Assembly (NCBI RefSeq): GCF_020515625.1
Contig: NZ_JAIWPJ010000001.1
Span: forward strand, 1,612,001-1,676,000
DNA from: Natrinema amylolyticum
GTDB taxonomy: Archaea > Halobacteriota > Halobacteria > Halobacteriales > Natrialbaceae
Direction: 5' to 3'
Length of the DNA: 64,000 bases
Each line of letters starts with the position of its first letter. Position 1 is the first letter of the stretch. The translations under genes were made by a program, and so were the position numbers. Below, piece after piece: positions 37,168 through 56,320 of this stretch. A model generated the notes under the pieces. The model ran no database searches and was not told the origin of the DNA. It saw only the letters and a program-made list of their open reading frames with translations.

Positions 37168-38151
37168 TCACTCCGCCGTCGGTCGGACCCGATCGGCGTA
37201 GTCGTCGACGATCGGCTCTCCGTCGGGGCGGAACGTCTCGGTCCACACCGCGTCCGGATCGATCGCTCCCTCGAGCAGCGCCGTCTCGGAGAGCGTCTCG
37301 CCGAGGCGCTGCCAGCGGGCCGGATCCTGTGCGCCCCACCCGTGATCCCGGACGTACGGCGTGAACTGCAGCCGGTGGGCGGCGGTTTCGAACTTGAGGC
37401 GCTCGATCTCACGGTTGCGCTCGAGCGTGGCGTTGCGCTCGACGAGCGCGTCGACGGCCCGCTCCGGGTCGCGGGTCGCGGCAGCCCAGCCGCGGGCGGT
37501 CGCACGGAGGAACGACCGAATCGTCTCGGGCCGTTCGTCCGCGAACTCGGGCCCGGTGACGAGCGTCATTCCGTAGATGTCGAGATAGTCGCCGATCGGG
37601 AGCTCGTCGGGCGTTCGATCGTGTTCTCGGCCGATCTCGATCCCGTTGGTGACCACGCCGACCGCCGCGTCGACCGTCCCGTCGATCACCTTGTGCTGGA
37701 CGCGGTGGTGCGTGTGCGGATCGACCTCGAGGAGGTCGACCTCGTCGCGGATGCCCGCGTTCTCGAGCAGCTGGGCGGTCAGGATTCGCGTCTTCGTCGC
37801 GGAGGGCGCGACGGTTCGACCCGCGAGCTGCTCGGGTTCGGAGAGGGGGTCGCCGAAGACGTCCCGCAGCGTGTAGACGGCCGCCGGCGTCTTCTGGGTC
37901 ACCGCCGCGACCGCGAGCGGCTCGAACCCCTCGCTCTGGACCGCCAGCACGGCGCTCGCACCGGCGAGTGCGATATCGGCGTCGCCGCGGGCGGCGCGTT
38001 CGGCCGCGTACGGCGAGCCGTGGCCCTCGACGAACTCGATCTCGAGGCCCTCCGCCGCGTAGAACCCCTCCTCGCGGGCGAGGAAGTACGGCGACTGGAA
38101 GCCGTTCGGCTCCCAGTTGAGCTGGAAGGAGAGCGATTCGGTCGCGGTCAT
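37168..38151 (-). CDS. NMT1/SsuA-like binding-fold protein, third gene of the triplet
   Basis: A 327-residue protein with the type 2 periplasmic-binding fold (NMT1/THI5-like, as in SsuA and ThiY). It starts LSFQLNWEPNGFQSPYFLAR, then EEGFYAAEGLEIEFVEGHGS, and includes RGDADIALAGASAVLAVQSE and GTVDAAVGVVTNGIEIG. No signal peptide or lipobox is present, so it should be cytoplasmic unless a start is misjudged. The yeast Thi5 active-site His and its Cys-rich iron motif are absent. Its ATG overlaps the stop of the upstream triplet member by four bases. No permease or ATPase gene is near. Role unknown. Confidence 0.8.
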   Translation of the reverse strand: MTATESLSFQLNWEPNGFQSPYFLAREEGFYAAEGLEIEFVEGHGSPYAAERAARGDADIALAGASAVLAVQSEGFEPLAVAAVTQKTPAAVYTLRDVFGDPLSEPEQLAGRTVAPSATKTRILTAQLLENAGIRDEVDLLEVDPHTHHRVQHKVIDGTVDAAVGVVTNGIEIGREHDRTPDELPIGDYLDIYGMTLVTGPEFADERPETIRSFLRATARGWAAATRDPERAVDALVERNATLERNREIERLKFETAAHRLQFTPYVRDHGWGAQDPARWQRLGETLSETALLEGAIDPDAVWTETFRPDGEPIVDDYADRVRPTAE

Positions 38152-39158
38152 GCTTCCACCTCGAGGTCCGTCCGAAACAGCCCATCGGGGAGTTCGTCGA
38201 TGCCGAGGGCGTCCGCACCGGCGACGGATCTGAGGTGGTCGAACAGCCGTTCCATCCCCTCGACGGTGGTCTCGTCCCAGTCGGGGACGACCATCTCGCG
38301 CCACTGATCCCGCACGGCGCGGACGACCGCGGGATCGTCCTCGTACATGAGCCGCTCGCCGATCTCCGTCCAGAGTTCGTCGTCGCGTCGGAGCCGCGCG
38401 ACTGCGTCCCGAAAGGCACCCCGGAACCCGCGGACTGCATCAGGGTGGTCGTGCAGGTACGCCTCACTCGTCAGGAACGTCGAGATGGGGATCGGCCGAT
38501 CGTCGTCGGTGTCGGCGAGACGGTCCACTAGCCGTGACATCGGCAACACCTCACGGTACGGCCCGGTCTCGACGATCTCCGGGATTATCTGCCAGAACTG
38601 GAGGATCGCGTCGACCTCGCCGTCCTCGAGCAGCCGGGTGAGTTCGACCTTCGACCCGGCCTCGACCGGCGCAGCCGTCTCGTCCGGATCGAAACCGTGG
38701 AACTCCCGGCAGGCCGCCCGGACGAGGATCCAGTTCTTGTCGAGCCGTCTGACGACGCCGATCCGGTGACCCGAGAGGTCCTCGAGCCCCTCGATCGCCG
38801 AATCGGTCGGCGTGACCAGTCCACCGACGGTCTGGCCGTACGGGTGGAAGGCGACGATCGGCGCGCCCGCAGCGCGCTCTCGGGCCGTCGAGATGTAGTC
38901 GATGTCGATCAGATCGGCGTCGCCCTCCTGTAGTTTCGCCTCGACCGTCTCGCGGCCCTCGTCCAGTTCGTCGGAGACGAGTCGCAGGTCGAGGTGGAAG
39001 TCGTGGTCGTGGTCGTAGCCGAAGCGCTTGATCGTATAGAGCATGTACCGCGGGCTACCGTTGTGCTCAAACCGCGCTCGTAAAACGGGACGGTCGCCGG
39101 AATCGCCCTGAAACTCGTCGATCGCGGCCTGCTGGGAACTGATGTCGATGTCGGTCAT
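38148..39158 (-). CDS. NMT1/SsuA-like binding-fold protein, second gene of the triplet
   Basis: A 336-residue binding-fold protein. It begins with a leader of polar residues (TDIDISSQQAAIDEFQGDSG) and then RPVLRARFEHNGSPRYMLYT. The fold is seen in LQEGDADLIDIDYISTARER and DLSGHRIGVVRRLDKNWILV, and LLEDGEVDAILQFWQIIPEI. No export signal is visible. The ligand site would lie between the two lobes, with candidate residues RYM near residue 37 and W near 153 (inference). It starts 38 bases after the first gene of the triplet and overlaps the third by four bases. Confidence 0.8.
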   Translation of the reverse strand: MTDIDISSQQAAIDEFQGDSGDRPVLRARFEHNGSPRYMLYTIKRFGYDHDHDFHLDLRLVSDELDEGRETVEAKLQEGDADLIDIDYISTARERAAGAPIVAFHPYGQTVGGLVTPTDSAIEGLEDLSGHRIGVVRRLDKNWILVRAACREFHGFDPDETAAPVEAGSKVELTRLLEDGEVDAILQFWQIIPEIVETGPYREVLPMSRLVDRLADTDDDRPIPISTFLTSEAYLHDHPDAVRGFRGAFRDAVARLRRDDELWTEIGERLMYEDDPAVVRAVRDQWREMVVPDWDETTVEGMERLFDHLRSVAGADALGIDELPDGLFRTDLEVEA

Positions 39159-39196
39159 AGTTTGGTCGTGGTATTTCTGGTGGTCGGTGGAAGCGG

Positions 39197-40090
39197 TTAC
39201 AGCGGCGCGACGATGTCGTCGATCGCCGCGCTCTCGTCGATCAATCCGCGATCCTGCATCCAGGCGAGGTGCTCGTCGAGTTCCTCCCGGTCGACGGGCT
39301 CCGGAACGTCGTACTGCGGCACGGTGATCTCCTCGCGGACGGCGTCCACGTCGACGTCGTCGAACAGGTCGGGCGCGACCGCGGCGTCAGCCTCGAGCAT
39401 CTCCAGATACGTCCCGCGGAAGGCGTCGGGATCCGCGTTGATGTCCTCGACGGCGCGACCGTAGGCCTGCAGGAACGCCTCGAGCAGGTCGCGATCGATC
39501 GCGTCGTCGCCGACGATTCCCATGTGGTTGTCGTACTCCAGCAGCCGCCGGAAGCCGAGGTGATCGGCGAGCGTGCTGTGAGGATCGATGAGCGTCACGG
39601 CGTCGACCCGACCCTCGTGGAGCGCCCGCAGCCGGTCGGTGGGCATCCCGCAGCCGACGAGGTCGACCTCGTCGGCGGCGACGTGTTCCTCGAGTGCCTT
39701 GCGCGCGGTATACTCCTGTCCCGTTCGCCGGTTGACGCCGACCGGAACGTCCGCGAGGTCGGCCGGCGTCTCGATTTCCGATTCGGGACGCGTGAACACC
39801 GTGTACGGGAGGTTCGCGAAGGTGCCGTTCGCGACGATTCGGCCGTCGCCCATGGTCCACGTCCGGCGGATGCTCTCCCACTTGCAGATGGGATAGAGGT
39901 CCACGTCGTACTCGCCGGTCAGCGTCTCCGCCGCGGGGATATACTTGACCTCGACGTCGCGCCTGTCTCGCTCCACCAGGTCGACCGCGAGCCCTTCCTC
40001 GCGGAAGTAGCCCCGCTCGCTCGCCACCTTCTGTGGCAGCATGAACGAGAACGGGAGGTGGAACAGCCGGATCGGTCGGTCTGCTAGCAT
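39197..40090 (-). CDS. NMT1/SsuA-like binding-fold protein, first gene of the triplet
   Basis: A 297-residue binding-fold protein, first of three on the minus strand. The N-terminus reads LADRPIRLFHLPFSFMLPQK then VASERGYFREEGLAVDLVER, without any signal peptide. Further segments are DVPVGVNRRTGQEYTARKAL, LRALHEGRVDAVTLIDPHST, and LLEYDNHMGIVGDDAIDRDL. The predicted ligand pocket includes His and Phe near the start. A divergent promoter with overlapping palindromes (40113-40127) separates it from a cupin gene. The ATG at 40090 fits a TATA-like GTTTTAAAAC about 27 bases upstream. Confidence 0.8.
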   Translation of the reverse strand: MLADRPIRLFHLPFSFMLPQKVASERGYFREEGLAVDLVERDRRDVEVKYIPAAETLTGEYDVDLYPICKWESIRRTWTMGDGRIVANGTFANLPYTVFTRPESEIETPADLADVPVGVNRRTGQEYTARKALEEHVAADEVDLVGCGMPTDRLRALHEGRVDAVTLIDPHSTLADHLGFRRLLEYDNHMGIVGDDAIDRDLLEAFLQAYGRAVEDINADPDAFRGTYLEMLEADAAVAPDLFDDVDVDAVREEITVPQYDVPEPVDREELDEHLAWMQDRGLIDESAAIDDIVAPL

Positions 40091-40112
40091 GGGACACTCC
40101 ACACCGAAGAGG

Positions 40113-40127
40113 GTTTTAAAACGTTTT
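40113..40127. promoter_or_regulatory. Overlapping palindromes in the divergent triplet/cupin promoter
   Basis: GTTTTAAAAC (40113-40122) and AAAACGTTTT (40118-40127) are both perfect 10-bp palindromes sharing five bases. The first is also at TATA distance from the minus-strand ATG at 40090. A TATA-like CGTTTATC (about 40135-40142) on the plus strand serves the cupin gene at 40174. The whole 83-bp divergent region is AT-rich and looks like a shared control site. Confidence 0.6.
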
Positions 40128-40173
40128 CATGATACGTTTATCAGTGCGGCCGTGGGGAGTGTTGCCTGTTCCC

Positions 40174-40536
40174 ATGGAACGACTATCGACGACCCGCGCG
40201 GCGTTCGAGGAAGTCGCAGACGGGGTGCACCTCGCGGACCTGCAAACGGGGGAGCGGGCCGGTATGGTCTACTGGCGGATCGAATCGGGGGCGACACTCC
40301 CGTCCCACACACACGCGAACGAACAGATCGGGTTCGTCCTCGAGGGGGAACTCACCGCGATCGTCGAGGGCGAGGAGTACGCGCTCGCGGCCGGTGACGC
40401 GTACATGTTCCGGAGCGACGAGCGTCACGGCGCGGAAAACCGGAGCGGCGAGGACGCGGTCGGGATCGGAGTGCTCGCACCGCCCCGCGAGGAGCCCGAC
40501 TGGCGACGGACGCCCTCCGCGGTCGAACGTGGCTGA
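40174..40536 (+). CDS. Cupin domain protein
   Basis: A 120-residue single-domain cupin. The first motif is complete: GATLPSHTHANEQIGFVLEG (residues 38-57) with the His-x-His, Glu metal ligands. The second motif is LAAGDAYMFRSDERHGAENR, ending in the fourth ligand His. Such proteins bind a divalent metal and act as small-molecule sensors or enzymes (dioxygenases, isomerases); which one cannot be told. It is divergent from the NMT1-like triplet across a palindromic promoter, and convergent with the aldehyde oxidoreductase gene. The ATG at 40174 starts directly at the domain. Confidence 0.87.
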   Translation: MERLSTTRAAFEEVADGVHLADLQTGERAGMVYWRIESGATLPSHTHANEQIGFVLEGELTAIVEGEEYALAAGDAYMFRSDERHGAENRSGEDAVGIGVLAPPREEPDWRRTPSAVERG

Positions 40537-40574: not shown

Positions 40575-42260
40575 TCACGGCTCAAGTTCGGCGAGCCGAT
40601 CCGGCGGCACGGTGCCGTCCGGGTTCCAGCCCCGACGGCGGTAATACGTATCGAGCGCCGACTCGAGGCCCTCGAGATCGTACGGTAGATCGTCGTCGTC
40701 ACCGCGGTCGAAGCCGCGCCGAGCGTTGAAGTCGCGCTCGAGGGTTACGATCCGCTCGCCGAGTCGCTGGAGGGCCTCGTCCGTCGTCGCGAGCAGCGCG
40801 GGGAGTTGCCCGCTCTCGACCGTCGTCCGGGAAAACTTACAGAGGATCGCGCTGTCGAGGACCGCCTTCTTATTCTCGGTCCGAACGAGGCGGTCAACCT
40901 TGCCCTCGAGTCCGGCCGGCTCGAGGGCTCTCTCCTGCTCGACCATCGGATACTCGTAGACGTACATGCTGCCGTAGAGGTGGTCCGCGCCGCGATTAGA
41001 GGTGGCGTACGCCAGTCCCTGCCCGTTGAGTCGCCGCCCGTCGTGGGCCGGGAACGCCACGCCCTTCATCGACCAGTCGGGGACGCCGAGGTCGTCGTGA
41101 CACCGGGCGACCCCCTCGGCGAGCAGGTCGCCGACGCCCTCTCGAGAGGCGATCTTCTCGACGAGGTCGTGGACGAGATCGGCGTCGCCGAAGGCGTCCT
41201 CGCTCGCGAGGTAGGCCGCGACGGCCGCCCCGCACTCGATCGTATCGAGGCCGAGCGCGTCACACCGCTCGTTCGCACCCATCACGTCGACGATATCGTC
41301 GACGCCGACGTTCGATCCGAACGCCATCACCGTCTCGAACTCCGGCCCTTCGGTCTCGAGGCCGGACTCGTCGTCCTTGGTGGGCAGTTTGCAGGCGAAC
41401 GCACAGCTCGAGCAGGTACCCCGCTCGTACTTCTTCTCGGCGACGCGCTCGCCGCTGATACCGTCGATCCCCTCGAACGAGCGCTCGCTGAAGTACCTGG
41501 TCGGCAGCGCTTCGATCTCGTTGGCGAACCCGGTCAACCCCGCGGTCCCCTGCCGTTTCATCACGTGGTCGCTCTCGGCGGCCGCGGCGTGAATCTCCCC
41601 GGCGACGTCCGGCACGTCGATCGAGGGAGCGGCGTCGCCCTCGAACGTGAGGTACTTGATATTCTTCGATCCCATCACCGCGCCCAGTCCGCCGCGGCCG
41701 AAGACCCGACCGCCCGAGGTCACGATCGCGGCGAACCGCACTTCGTTCTCACCGGCCGGACCGACGCAGGCGACGTGCGAGGCCGCCTCGTCGTCGTCGA
41801 AGCCGCGCCGATCCGCGACGCGCGCCGTCACCTCGGGGACGGTCGCGCCGGCCAGTTCCGGTACCTCCTCGAACGAGACGCCCTCGTCGGTCACGTGAAC
41901 CGCGAGTAGCCGGTCGCTCTCGCCGGTCACCTTGAGCGCGCCGTAGCCGGTGTTCGCGAACGGCCGGGAGAGGAATCCGCCAGCGTTCGACGAGACGAGC
42001 CCGTCTGACAGCGGCGAGACGGCCGTACAGTTCAGCCGGCCGGTGAAGCTCGTCCGCGTCGTCTGCAGCGGACCGGCGCTGAAGAAGAGCGCGTTCTCCG
42101 GGCCCAGCGGATCGACGTCGAACGGCAGCCGATCGTGTGCGAGTTTCGTTCCGACGCCTCGGCCGCCGACGTACCTCGAGAGGACGCCGTCGATCCGGTC
42201 CGTCTCGGCGGACCGCGCACCGACGTCGATCGAGAGCAGCGGCCCTCGTCCGGTCAGCAT
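40575..42260 (-). CDS. Aldehyde:ferredoxin oxidoreductase family (tungsten/molybdopterin)
   Basis: A 561-residue member of the AOR family, which oxidises aldehydes to acids with ferredoxin as acceptor using a bis-pyranopterin tungsten cofactor. The [4Fe-4S] cysteines are GTCSSCAFAC at 283, 286, 290, with the fourth at C474 (DSAILCKFSRTT). Cofactor-binding segments include RYVGGRGVGTKLAHDRLP, SPLSDGLVSSNAGGFLSRPF, and GGRVFGRGGLGAVMGSKNIK. It is shorter than the 600-residue Pyrococcus enzymes but complete. It stands alone on the minus strand, with a TATA-like GATTTATGA about 27 bases upstream. The natural aldehyde is unknown. Confidence 0.92.
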   Translation of the reverse strand: MLTGRGPLLSIDVGARSAETDRIDGVLSRYVGGRGVGTKLAHDRLPFDVDPLGPENALFFSAGPLQTTRTSFTGRLNCTAVSPLSDGLVSSNAGGFLSRPFANTGYGALKVTGESDRLLAVHVTDEGVSFEEVPELAGATVPEVTARVADRRGFDDDEAASHVACVGPAGENEVRFAAIVTSGGRVFGRGGLGAVMGSKNIKYLTFEGDAAPSIDVPDVAGEIHAAAAESDHVMKRQGTAGLTGFANEIEALPTRYFSERSFEGIDGISGERVAEKKYERGTCSSCAFACKLPTKDDESGLETEGPEFETVMAFGSNVGVDDIVDVMGANERCDALGLDTIECGAAVAAYLASEDAFGDADLVHDLVEKIASREGVGDLLAEGVARCHDDLGVPDWSMKGVAFPAHDGRRLNGQGLAYATSNRGADHLYGSMYVYEYPMVEQERALEPAGLEGKVDRLVRTENKKAVLDSAILCKFSRTTVESGQLPALLATTDEALQRLGERIVTLERDFNARRGFDRGDDDDLPYDLEGLESALDTYYRRRGWNPDGTVPPDRLAELEP

Positions 42261-42400: not shown

Positions 42401-42829
42401 ATGGATTCCGTCGATCACATCAACGTCGACGTCGACGCGCTCGAGCCCTGCTACGAGTTCTATCGCGACGTCCTCGATCTCGAACTCGTCAGACCGCCGG
42501 CGGATTTTCAGGGCGAACACGCGATGTTCCGGGCCGGCGAAACGGTCGTGACGCTGGCCGAAACGGGCCGCGCCGAGAACTGGGACGAGCGGGGGCTCGA
42601 TCATCCCCTCGACAAGGCCCACCTCGCGTTCGAGACCGATCGCGAGACCTACGCGGCGCTGATGGACGACCTCGATGACCAGTTCCCGAACCAGGGTCCG
42701 TACGACTGGGACGAGTTCGAGGGGTTCTACTTCCTCGACCCCGACGGGAATCTCCTCGAGGTCGTCACCTACGAGTCCCCGCCGGGCGAGCGAACGCGAC
42801 CGTTGCTCACGCACGACGACGTCGAGTGA
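42401..42829 (+). CDS. VOC family (glyoxalase-like) protein
   Basis: A 142-residue protein with the vicinal oxygen chelate fold. It begins VDHINVDVDALEPCYEFYRD followed by VLDLELVRPPADFQGEHAMF. Metal-type ligands are His in VDHINVD, another in KAHLAFETD, and Glu in DPDGNLLEVVTYESP. The GFYFLDPDGNLLEVV motif is the family's strand 8. Members are glyoxalases, dioxygenases or resistance proteins; the function here is not determined. The ATG at 42401 starts directly at the domain. It is divergent from the AOR gene. Confidence 0.85.
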   Translation: MDSVDHINVDVDALEPCYEFYRDVLDLELVRPPADFQGEHAMFRAGETVVTLAETGRAENWDERGLDHPLDKAHLAFETDRETYAALMDDLDDQFPNQGPYDWDEFEGFYFLDPDGNLLEVVTYESPPGERTRPLLTHDDVE

Positions 42830-55495: not shown

Positions 55496-56320
55496 TCACA
55501 GCACGTACTGTTCGCCGTCGATCGCCAGCGGCTCCTCGAACGCCTCGTCCGCGGGGTAGAAGTGCGCGAGGTGGACCAGCCGCGTCCGATCGGCGTTTAG
55601 TTCCTCGGCCAGCGCGAGCGCCCCCTCTCGCGTCATGTGCTTCGTCCCGAAGGTCCACGGGACGCCGTCGGGCTCCTCGTGGCGGCCGCCGATCGGGTGA
55701 TAGTCGGCGAGGCTCGCCGGGACGATCGCGTCGGCCAGCAGGAGGTCTGCGTCGGCGAGTACGGCGCGGGACTCGTCGGGGATATCGTAGCTCGTATCGC
55801 CCGTGATCGACAGCTTCGCGCCCGTCTCGGGATCCTCGACGGCGAGTCCGTAACAGACCAGCGGCGGGTGCTCGACCGGCACCAGCGTCACGTCGAGCCC
55901 GCAGATCCGGACCGTCTCGAGCGGCGTCGTCGGCACCACGGTGACGGGATCGAGGTAGTGATAGTCGTCTCGAATCGTCTCGGCGACGCTCTCGCCCGTC
56001 TCAGGGTCAGTCTCGTCGGCCGCATATACCTCGAGGTCGTCCAGCACGCGGAAGACGTTGCCCAGCCCGTCGAGGTGGTCGAAGTGGATGTGCGTGATGA
56101 CGGCGGCGTCTGGCAGCGGGACCTCGTCGCGGAGGAACTGATAGCGGAAGTCGGGGCTGAAGTCGATCAACAGTGACTCGCCGGTCCGTTCGTTTTCGAT
56201 GTGGACTGAGAACCGCGTGCGCTCGACCCCGCGCTCGCGCGCTGCGGTACAGGTGTCACAGTCGCAGCCGACGGTCGGCGTCCCCGTCGTGTCGCCGGTT
56301 CCGAGCAGGGTCACCCGCAT
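55496..56320 (-). CDS. MBL-fold metallohydrolase (PhnP-like phosphodiesterase)
   Basis: A 274-residue metallo-beta-lactamase-fold enzyme. The zinc motif is THIHFDHLDGLGNV (residues about 79-92), with later ligands in ITGDTSYDIP and HLAHFYPADEAF. Near the N-terminus lies the Cys cluster GCDCDTCTAARERG, typical of PhnP-type cyclic phosphodiesterases. The substrate is unknown. The ATG at 56320 was preferred over a GTG two codons upstream. It is convergent with the DUF5787-like gene. Confidence 0.9.
   Translation of the reverse strand: MRVTLLGTGDTTGTPTVGCDCDTCTAARERGVERTRFSVHIENERTGESLLIDFSPDFRYQFLRDEVPLPDAAVITHIHFDHLDGLGNVFRVLDDLEVYAADETDPETGESVAETIRDDYHYLDPVTVVPTTPLETVRICGLDVTLVPVEHPPLVCYGLAVEDPETGAKLSITGDTSYDIPDESRAVLADADLLLADAIVPASLADYHPIGGRHEEPDGVPWTFGTKHMTREGALALAEELNADRTRLVHLAHFYPADEAFEEPLAIDGEQYVL

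Follow-up and report, generated by a model that had tools for sequence, protein, structure and literature searches.

A cytosolic module of three NMT1-fold proteins, a cupin and a VOC protein with a putative role in the PQQ supply of haloarchaeal quinoproteins

Within a 64,000-nucleotide stretch of the genome of Natrinema amylolyticum (contig NZ_JAIWPJ010000001.1, positions 1,612,001 to 1,676,000; hereafter the window), three tandem minus-strand genes encode proteins of the NMT1 fold (P1, P2 and P3, together the triplet), divergent from a cupin gene and close to a gene of the VOC (glyoxalase/dioxygenase) superfamily. We propose that the triplet, the cupin and the VOC protein probably form a module that acts in the cytosol to supply or prepare pyrroloquinoline quinone (PQQ), or a close analogue, for quinoproteins of the methanol/ethanol dehydrogenase family. 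This proposal draws on gene content and conservation, co-occurrence with PQQ-type dehydrogenases, the homology of P2 to PqqT, missing export signals, the cofactor ligands of the dehydrogenases and the absence of PqqC; that the ligand is PQQ, that the module supplies it and what each protein does are what we infer from these observations.

Co-occurrence with PQQ dehydrogenases and an ABC importer

The distribution of the triplet, scored by P2, was compared with that of the PQQ-type alcohol dehydrogenase in 125 genomes of the family and in a class-wide sample of 391 genomes. In the family, the dehydrogenase is present in all 43 genomes with the triplet versus 10 of the 82 without it, and in the window's genus the corresponding counts are 18 of 18 versus 0 of 11. 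An NMT1-type ABC importer is encoded in each of the ten genomes that have the dehydrogenase but not the triplet, and the presence of either the triplet or the importer coincides with that of the dehydrogenase in 125 of 125 genomes. The importer permease was found in exactly the 29 importer genomes, and the recognised importer is wholly missing from 24 of the 43 triplet genomes. With 24 genomes having only the triplet and 10 only the importer, triplet and importer appear to be alternatives in supplying the cofactor. A similar pattern emerges in the class sample, where the dehydrogenase occurs in 52 of 54 triplet genomes versus 16 of 337 others, and all 68 dehydrogenase genomes have the triplet or the importer; four genomes are the opposite way round. 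Given its scatter within genera, the association of the triplet with the dehydrogenase is strong.

In the window's genome the dehydrogenase is encoded on another contig (locus L064), beside the ABC importer; its neighbours include the Tat lipoprotein of the importer (P0009), a fusion of a helix-turn-helix (HTH) domain to an NMT1 domain, an aldehyde ferredoxin oxidoreductase (AOR) and a halocyanin-like protein. Some triplet loci do contain a PQQ alcohol dehydrogenase. NMT1 matches occur in only six places in this genome, five of which are members of the proposed system, namely P1, P2, P3, the importer lipoprotein and the HTH-NMT1 protein. The last of these (L064:13192-14472, and its orthologs) has a MarR-like HTH domain, lies in the importer operon and is likely to be a transcription regulator that senses the imported ligand.

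The preliminary description of the window had stated that no transporter accompanies the triplet. This holds for the window, where neither an ABC permease nor an ATPase is found among the neighbouring genes, but not beyond it, as an importer of the same system exists in several genera and at L064. The same description named a conserved permease/ATPase pair beside triplet orthologs as evidence that would overturn its cytoplasmic enzyme or sensor reading; the importer does not amount to such evidence, since it has a binding protein of its own and is lacking from 24 of the 43 triplet genomes.

Composition and conservation of the module

P1 (39197-40090, minus strand, 297 aa), P2 (38148-39158, minus strand, 336 aa) and P3 (37168-38151, minus strand, 327 aa) each pass the Pfam NMT1 model (PF09084). 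P1 and P2 are separated by 38 bp, whereas the reading frames of P2 and P3 share ATGA, the gene coordinates and the 4-bp overlap being as previously described. The three translations show neither a signal peptide nor a lipobox (signal-peptide calls throughout this work were made by eye), and the spacing of the genes, with 83 bp upstream of P1, is so tight that room for an upstream signal peptide is excluded. The earlier view that these are cytosolic proteins rather than exported binding proteins is therefore borne out by sequence. The cupin gene (40174-40536, plus strand) is read here from the conserved Met16 of a longer frame, and with this start the divergent region measures exactly the 83 bp reported before. 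The fifth and near-constant member of the module, a VOC protein of 142 aa (42401-42829, plus strand), was absent from the earlier gene list. The former suggestion of a cytoplasmic enzyme or sensor complex with the cupin as possible partner or regulator is upheld in part, as to the location judged by sequence and the partnership of the cupin, but it overlooked both the VOC gene and the link to PQQ.

The neighbourhood of the triplet was surveyed in 67 loci from several haloarchaeal families, some species having been fetched twice. The order cupin/P1-P2-P3 is kept in the triplet loci examined, with the sole exception of Halolamina (L103), and the VOC gene adjoins the triplet in nearly all loci; the cupin, earlier proposed as a partner, is constant beside the triplet. 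Among 54-55 distinct orthologs, positions at least 97% identical number about 100 of 297 in P1, 127 of 336 in P2 and 120 of 327 in P3; the invariants of P1 include CKWES, NRRTGQEYT, GMPTDRL and NH. Profile comparison reveals no more than a distant kinship among P1, P2 and P3, which are thus not recent duplicates. Candidate metal ligands are conserved in both small proteins: in the cupin (longer-frame numbering) H60, H62 and H100 occur in 54 of 54 sequences and E65 in 53, and in the VOC protein the candidate triad H6, H74 and E120 is invariant in 54 of 54. Two P2 copies were found in one genus (G304, G186, G254, G299, G333, G341 and G373); in G304 they stand in tandem, beside P1 and P3. P2 had no match in the phage collection.

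Aldehyde-oxidising enzymes of the AOR, aldehyde dehydrogenase (ALDH) or xanthine dehydrogenase (XDH) type recur next to the module, the enzyme type varying while the module is constant. In the window this place is taken by a tungsten-family AOR (40575-42260, minus strand), which adjoins the cupin; AOR was rejected as an obligatory partner, being adjacent to the triplet in many loci but not in most. In addition, a CDC48-type AAA ATPase recurs near the PQQ dehydrogenase or the triplet in several loci (for instance, L072:6127-8346) and could be an assembly chaperone.

The divergent promoter (40091-40173, assigned to neither strand) does contain the two perfect palindromes noted earlier. However, GTTTTAAAAC is not conserved, and regulation via these palindromes was rejected in favour of two putative back-to-back TATA-like boxes, at about 40114-40121 and 40137-40141, which fit better. 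In relatives, two back-to-back archaeal TATA-like boxes flank an imperfect inverted repeat, e.g., TATAAAACGTTTCTAGGAAACGTTTATA.

The binding-fold proteins, the dehydrogenases and the source of PQQ

P2 is similar over about 290 residues (39-328) to PqqT (PDB 9b1u/9ooz, E-value 2e-23), and the PqqT entries are its sole PDB relatives at E<=0.1. PqqT is a PQQ-binding protein of Methylobacterium/Methylorubrum extorquens and is not described as an enzyme (PMC12828617, PMC12124388); a structure with PQQ and Gd is available (9B1V), and lysine K142 is an engineered residue (PMC12828617). By numbering, K142 matches the DKNW lysine, which is residue 115 of the chain; the offset of 27 agrees with 9b1u covering residues 29-326. 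This pocket-lysine motif has the form DK-x-W (DKNW or DKSW), and the corresponding K141 and W143 of P2 are at least 97% conserved in 56 archaeal sequences and present in 7 of 7 bacterial ones; W189, P106, Y107 and D87 are likewise common to bacterial PqqT-like proteins. The plasmid-borne bacterial relatives of P2 adjoin PQQ dehydrogenases in all six loci read, which also hold ABC transporter permease and/or ATPase genes, and all six proteins have signal peptides, in contrast to P2. The dehydrogenases of these loci belong to different families (the Qingshengfaniella locus has membrane-bound GDH- and sorbosone-dehydrogenase-type genes and no methanol-type enzyme), which points to the cofactor, not the substrate, as what they have in common. 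As a PqqT homolog that is no longer exported, P2 most likely serves to bind the cofactor.

P3 shares 35-41% identity with the binding protein of the importer and about 31% with an HTH-NMT1 regulator. The similarity to the former suggests that the ligand is the same, and P3 likely binds it. A Thi5-type thiamine role was rejected for P3: the alignment has small residues or gaps at the positions of the catalytic residues of Thi5, namely the pyridoxal-phosphate lysine 62, histidine 66 and the CCCFC motif. Membership in the SsuA family (TIGR01728) was also discarded, the best score, that of P3, being 49.2 bits against the curated cut-off of 163.5. The AlphaFold model of P1 (pLDDT 90) has SsuA, ThiY, Thi5 and PqqT as its nearest folds; it aligns with MqnD (2czl) at Z 17.4 over 243 residues (root-mean-square deviation 3.8) and with DszB (2de2) at Z 15.9 over 264 residues (4.3). 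Distant bacterial-type relatives of P1 in Mesorhizobium, Geminicoccaceae and on a Halococcus plasmid have unrelated contexts and give no functional clue.

In sequence, the haloarchaeal dehydrogenases resemble the quinoprotein ethanol and methanol dehydrogenases (best match 1e-64). When P0006 is aligned with the quinoprotein 6zcv, the catalytic Asp, the second, lanthanide-type Asp (WDYD versus WDFD) and the Glu, Asn and Trp positions are retained, with residue roles as in the quinoprotein family. The D-x-WDYD motif is found in every haloarchaeal copy read, bar one fragment cut at the end of its locus. Two subfamilies, with and without a CC pair, can be distinguished (L064:15647-17356, L049:12558-14276 and others). 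No signal peptide is present on the haloarchaeal enzymes, in contrast to the bacterial copy in L069. A dehydrogenase made without a signal peptide would have to receive its cofactor in the cytosol, and this would hold whether the enzyme stays inside or leaves the cell folded. Just upstream of the dehydrogenase, and coupled to it, lies a gene for a protein of about 300 aa (L064:14723-15640; also in L079, L087, L093 and L106). Its confident all-helical model (pLDDT 86) has no convincing PDB match, nor has the protein a Pfam match. It starts with a Tat signal in some lineages, degenerate in others, and is possibly a co-export partner of the dehydrogenase.

PqqC was found in none of the 125 family genomes, and in both Sinorhizobium replicons used as positive control. 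Searches for PqqE and PqqB in three genomes, the window's own and two relatives, gave matches below the cut-off, the control being above it. The cofactor is thus either imported or made another way. A metallo-beta-lactamase-fold protein in the window (55727-56317, minus strand) has a weak likeness to PqqB (E-value 6e-9, far under the cut-off) and is probably a generic relative.

Interpretation and comparison with known systems

The following scheme may be suggested. In importer-bearing cells PQQ would be taken up by the ABC importer, while in triplet-bearing cells the five proteins would produce, modify or keep the cofactor within the cytosol. Of these, P2 and P3 would be the binding members, from which the cofactor would be passed to the apo-dehydrogenase, and P1, the cupin and the VOC protein would likely be enzymes or partners on the same path. 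Oxidation of the aldehydes formed by the dehydrogenase could then fall to the AOR, ALDH or XDH-type enzymes encoded nearby. The far-reaching version of this scheme, a PqqA-E-independent cytosolic route to PQQ or a PQQ-like quinone, with three binding-fold enzymes serving cytosolic lanthanide-type quinoproteins, we regard as rather doubtful. A tentative place is left for the modest version, in which P1-P3 only handle the cofactor, as cytosolic carriers or insertion chaperones, and PQQ enters by some other importer. Signal-less dehydrogenases do require insertion in the cytosol, and the description of PqqT as a binding protein is in agreement with such a role. At the same time, the recognised importer is missing from the 24 triplet-only genomes, the ten importer-only genomes manage without the triplet, which is thus dispensable for insertion, and the conserved candidate metal ligands of the cupin and the VOC protein point to chemistry.

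The frequent vicinity of aldehyde-oxidising enzymes and the VOC protein, as well as the resemblance of P3 to the importer's binding protein, would also fit a triplet that acted on the substrate, binding or converting an alcohol or aldehyde of the dehydrogenase/AOR route in the manner of binding-fold catabolic enzymes. We consider this unlikely, as P2 groups with PqqT, whose bacterial relatives adjoin PQQ dehydrogenases of different families, and the aldehyde enzyme varies while the module does not. A role of the triplet as a cytosolic sensor, responding to the cofactor or the substrate and controlling the dehydrogenase genes, is more improbable still: the fold probably serves sensing in the HTH-NMT1 fusion, and the triplet diverges from the cupin across a compact promoter, but P1-P3 have no DNA-binding domain, genome-by-genome replacement of the importer is not expected of a sensor, and 100-127 near-invariant residues per protein better fit catalytic or tight binding sites. 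Finally, the NMT1 fold is usual for binding subunits of ABC transporters, yet we find it hardly credible that P1-P3 are ordinary binding proteins of a permease encoded elsewhere. They have neither a signal peptide nor room for one, and 24 triplet genomes are without the permease that belongs to this system; on these grounds the notion of orphan transporter subunits was rejected.

Some observations weigh against the proposed supply of PQQ by the module. The genomes are related, so the presence patterns are not independent and any P value would be inflated by kinship. In most loci, those of the window's genome among them, triplet and dehydrogenase are not linked, the Halolamina locus is devoid of P3, and one triplet genome (G153) is without a dehydrogenase at E<=1e-60. 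Bacterial PqqT proteins are exported and encoded beside ABC transporter genes, neither of which is true of P2, and for P1 and P3 a tie to PQQ chemistry is conjectural. The presence of PQQ in these archaea is itself presumed, from residues and homology.

In the general view, PQQ enzymes work in the periplasm, and PQQ itself either arises by the PqqA-E peptide pathway or is scavenged. A PqqT relative that lacks a signal peptide, is tied in one genome after another to quinoproteins likewise lacking one and can be swapped with an importer suggests intracellular PQQ biochemistry in some archaea, and lanthanide biochemistry inside archaeal cells becomes possible as well. No description of such a system in haloarchaea was found in the literature searched, nor anything relevant on haloarchaeal PQQ, lanthanides or quinoproteins, subscription journals being mostly outside the search. 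On the reading proposed here, three "ABC substrate-binding proteins" gain a testable role, and in triplet-only species a second means of obtaining PQQ could be tested directly.

Various aspects of the module have counterparts in known systems. Like PedH and XoxF, the lanthanide-type PQQ alcohol dehydrogenases, the haloarchaeal enzymes keep the catalytic and the second Asp, but they have no signal peptide and come with a helical partner protein that is new. The product of the module, should it make PQQ, would be that of the bacterial PqqA-E pathway, from which the module differs in that its genomes have no PqqC (125 genomes) and contain PqqE and PqqB only as sub-cut-off relatives (three genomes). 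MqnA/MqnD and DszB set a precedent for cytosolic enzymes on the type 2 binding-protein fold, and P1 aligns to MqnD and DszB, with the likeness limited to the fold at a low identity of 14-18%. The Thi5/THI13 HMP synthase and ThiY are nearest to P3 by sequence and to P1 by fold, and Thi5 itself is cytosolic and signal-less like P1-P3; unlike Thi5, P3 lacks K62, H66 and CCCFC and is linked to PQQ dehydrogenases instead. With periplasmic PqqT (9B1U, 9B1V and 9OOZ) P2 shares whole-domain homology, the DK-x-W lysine, the pocket aromatics and the association with PQQ dehydrogenases, whereas P2 is archaeal, has no signal peptide and, in place of ABC permease and ATPase genes, is accompanied by two more proteins of the NMT1 fold as well as the cupin and the VOC protein.

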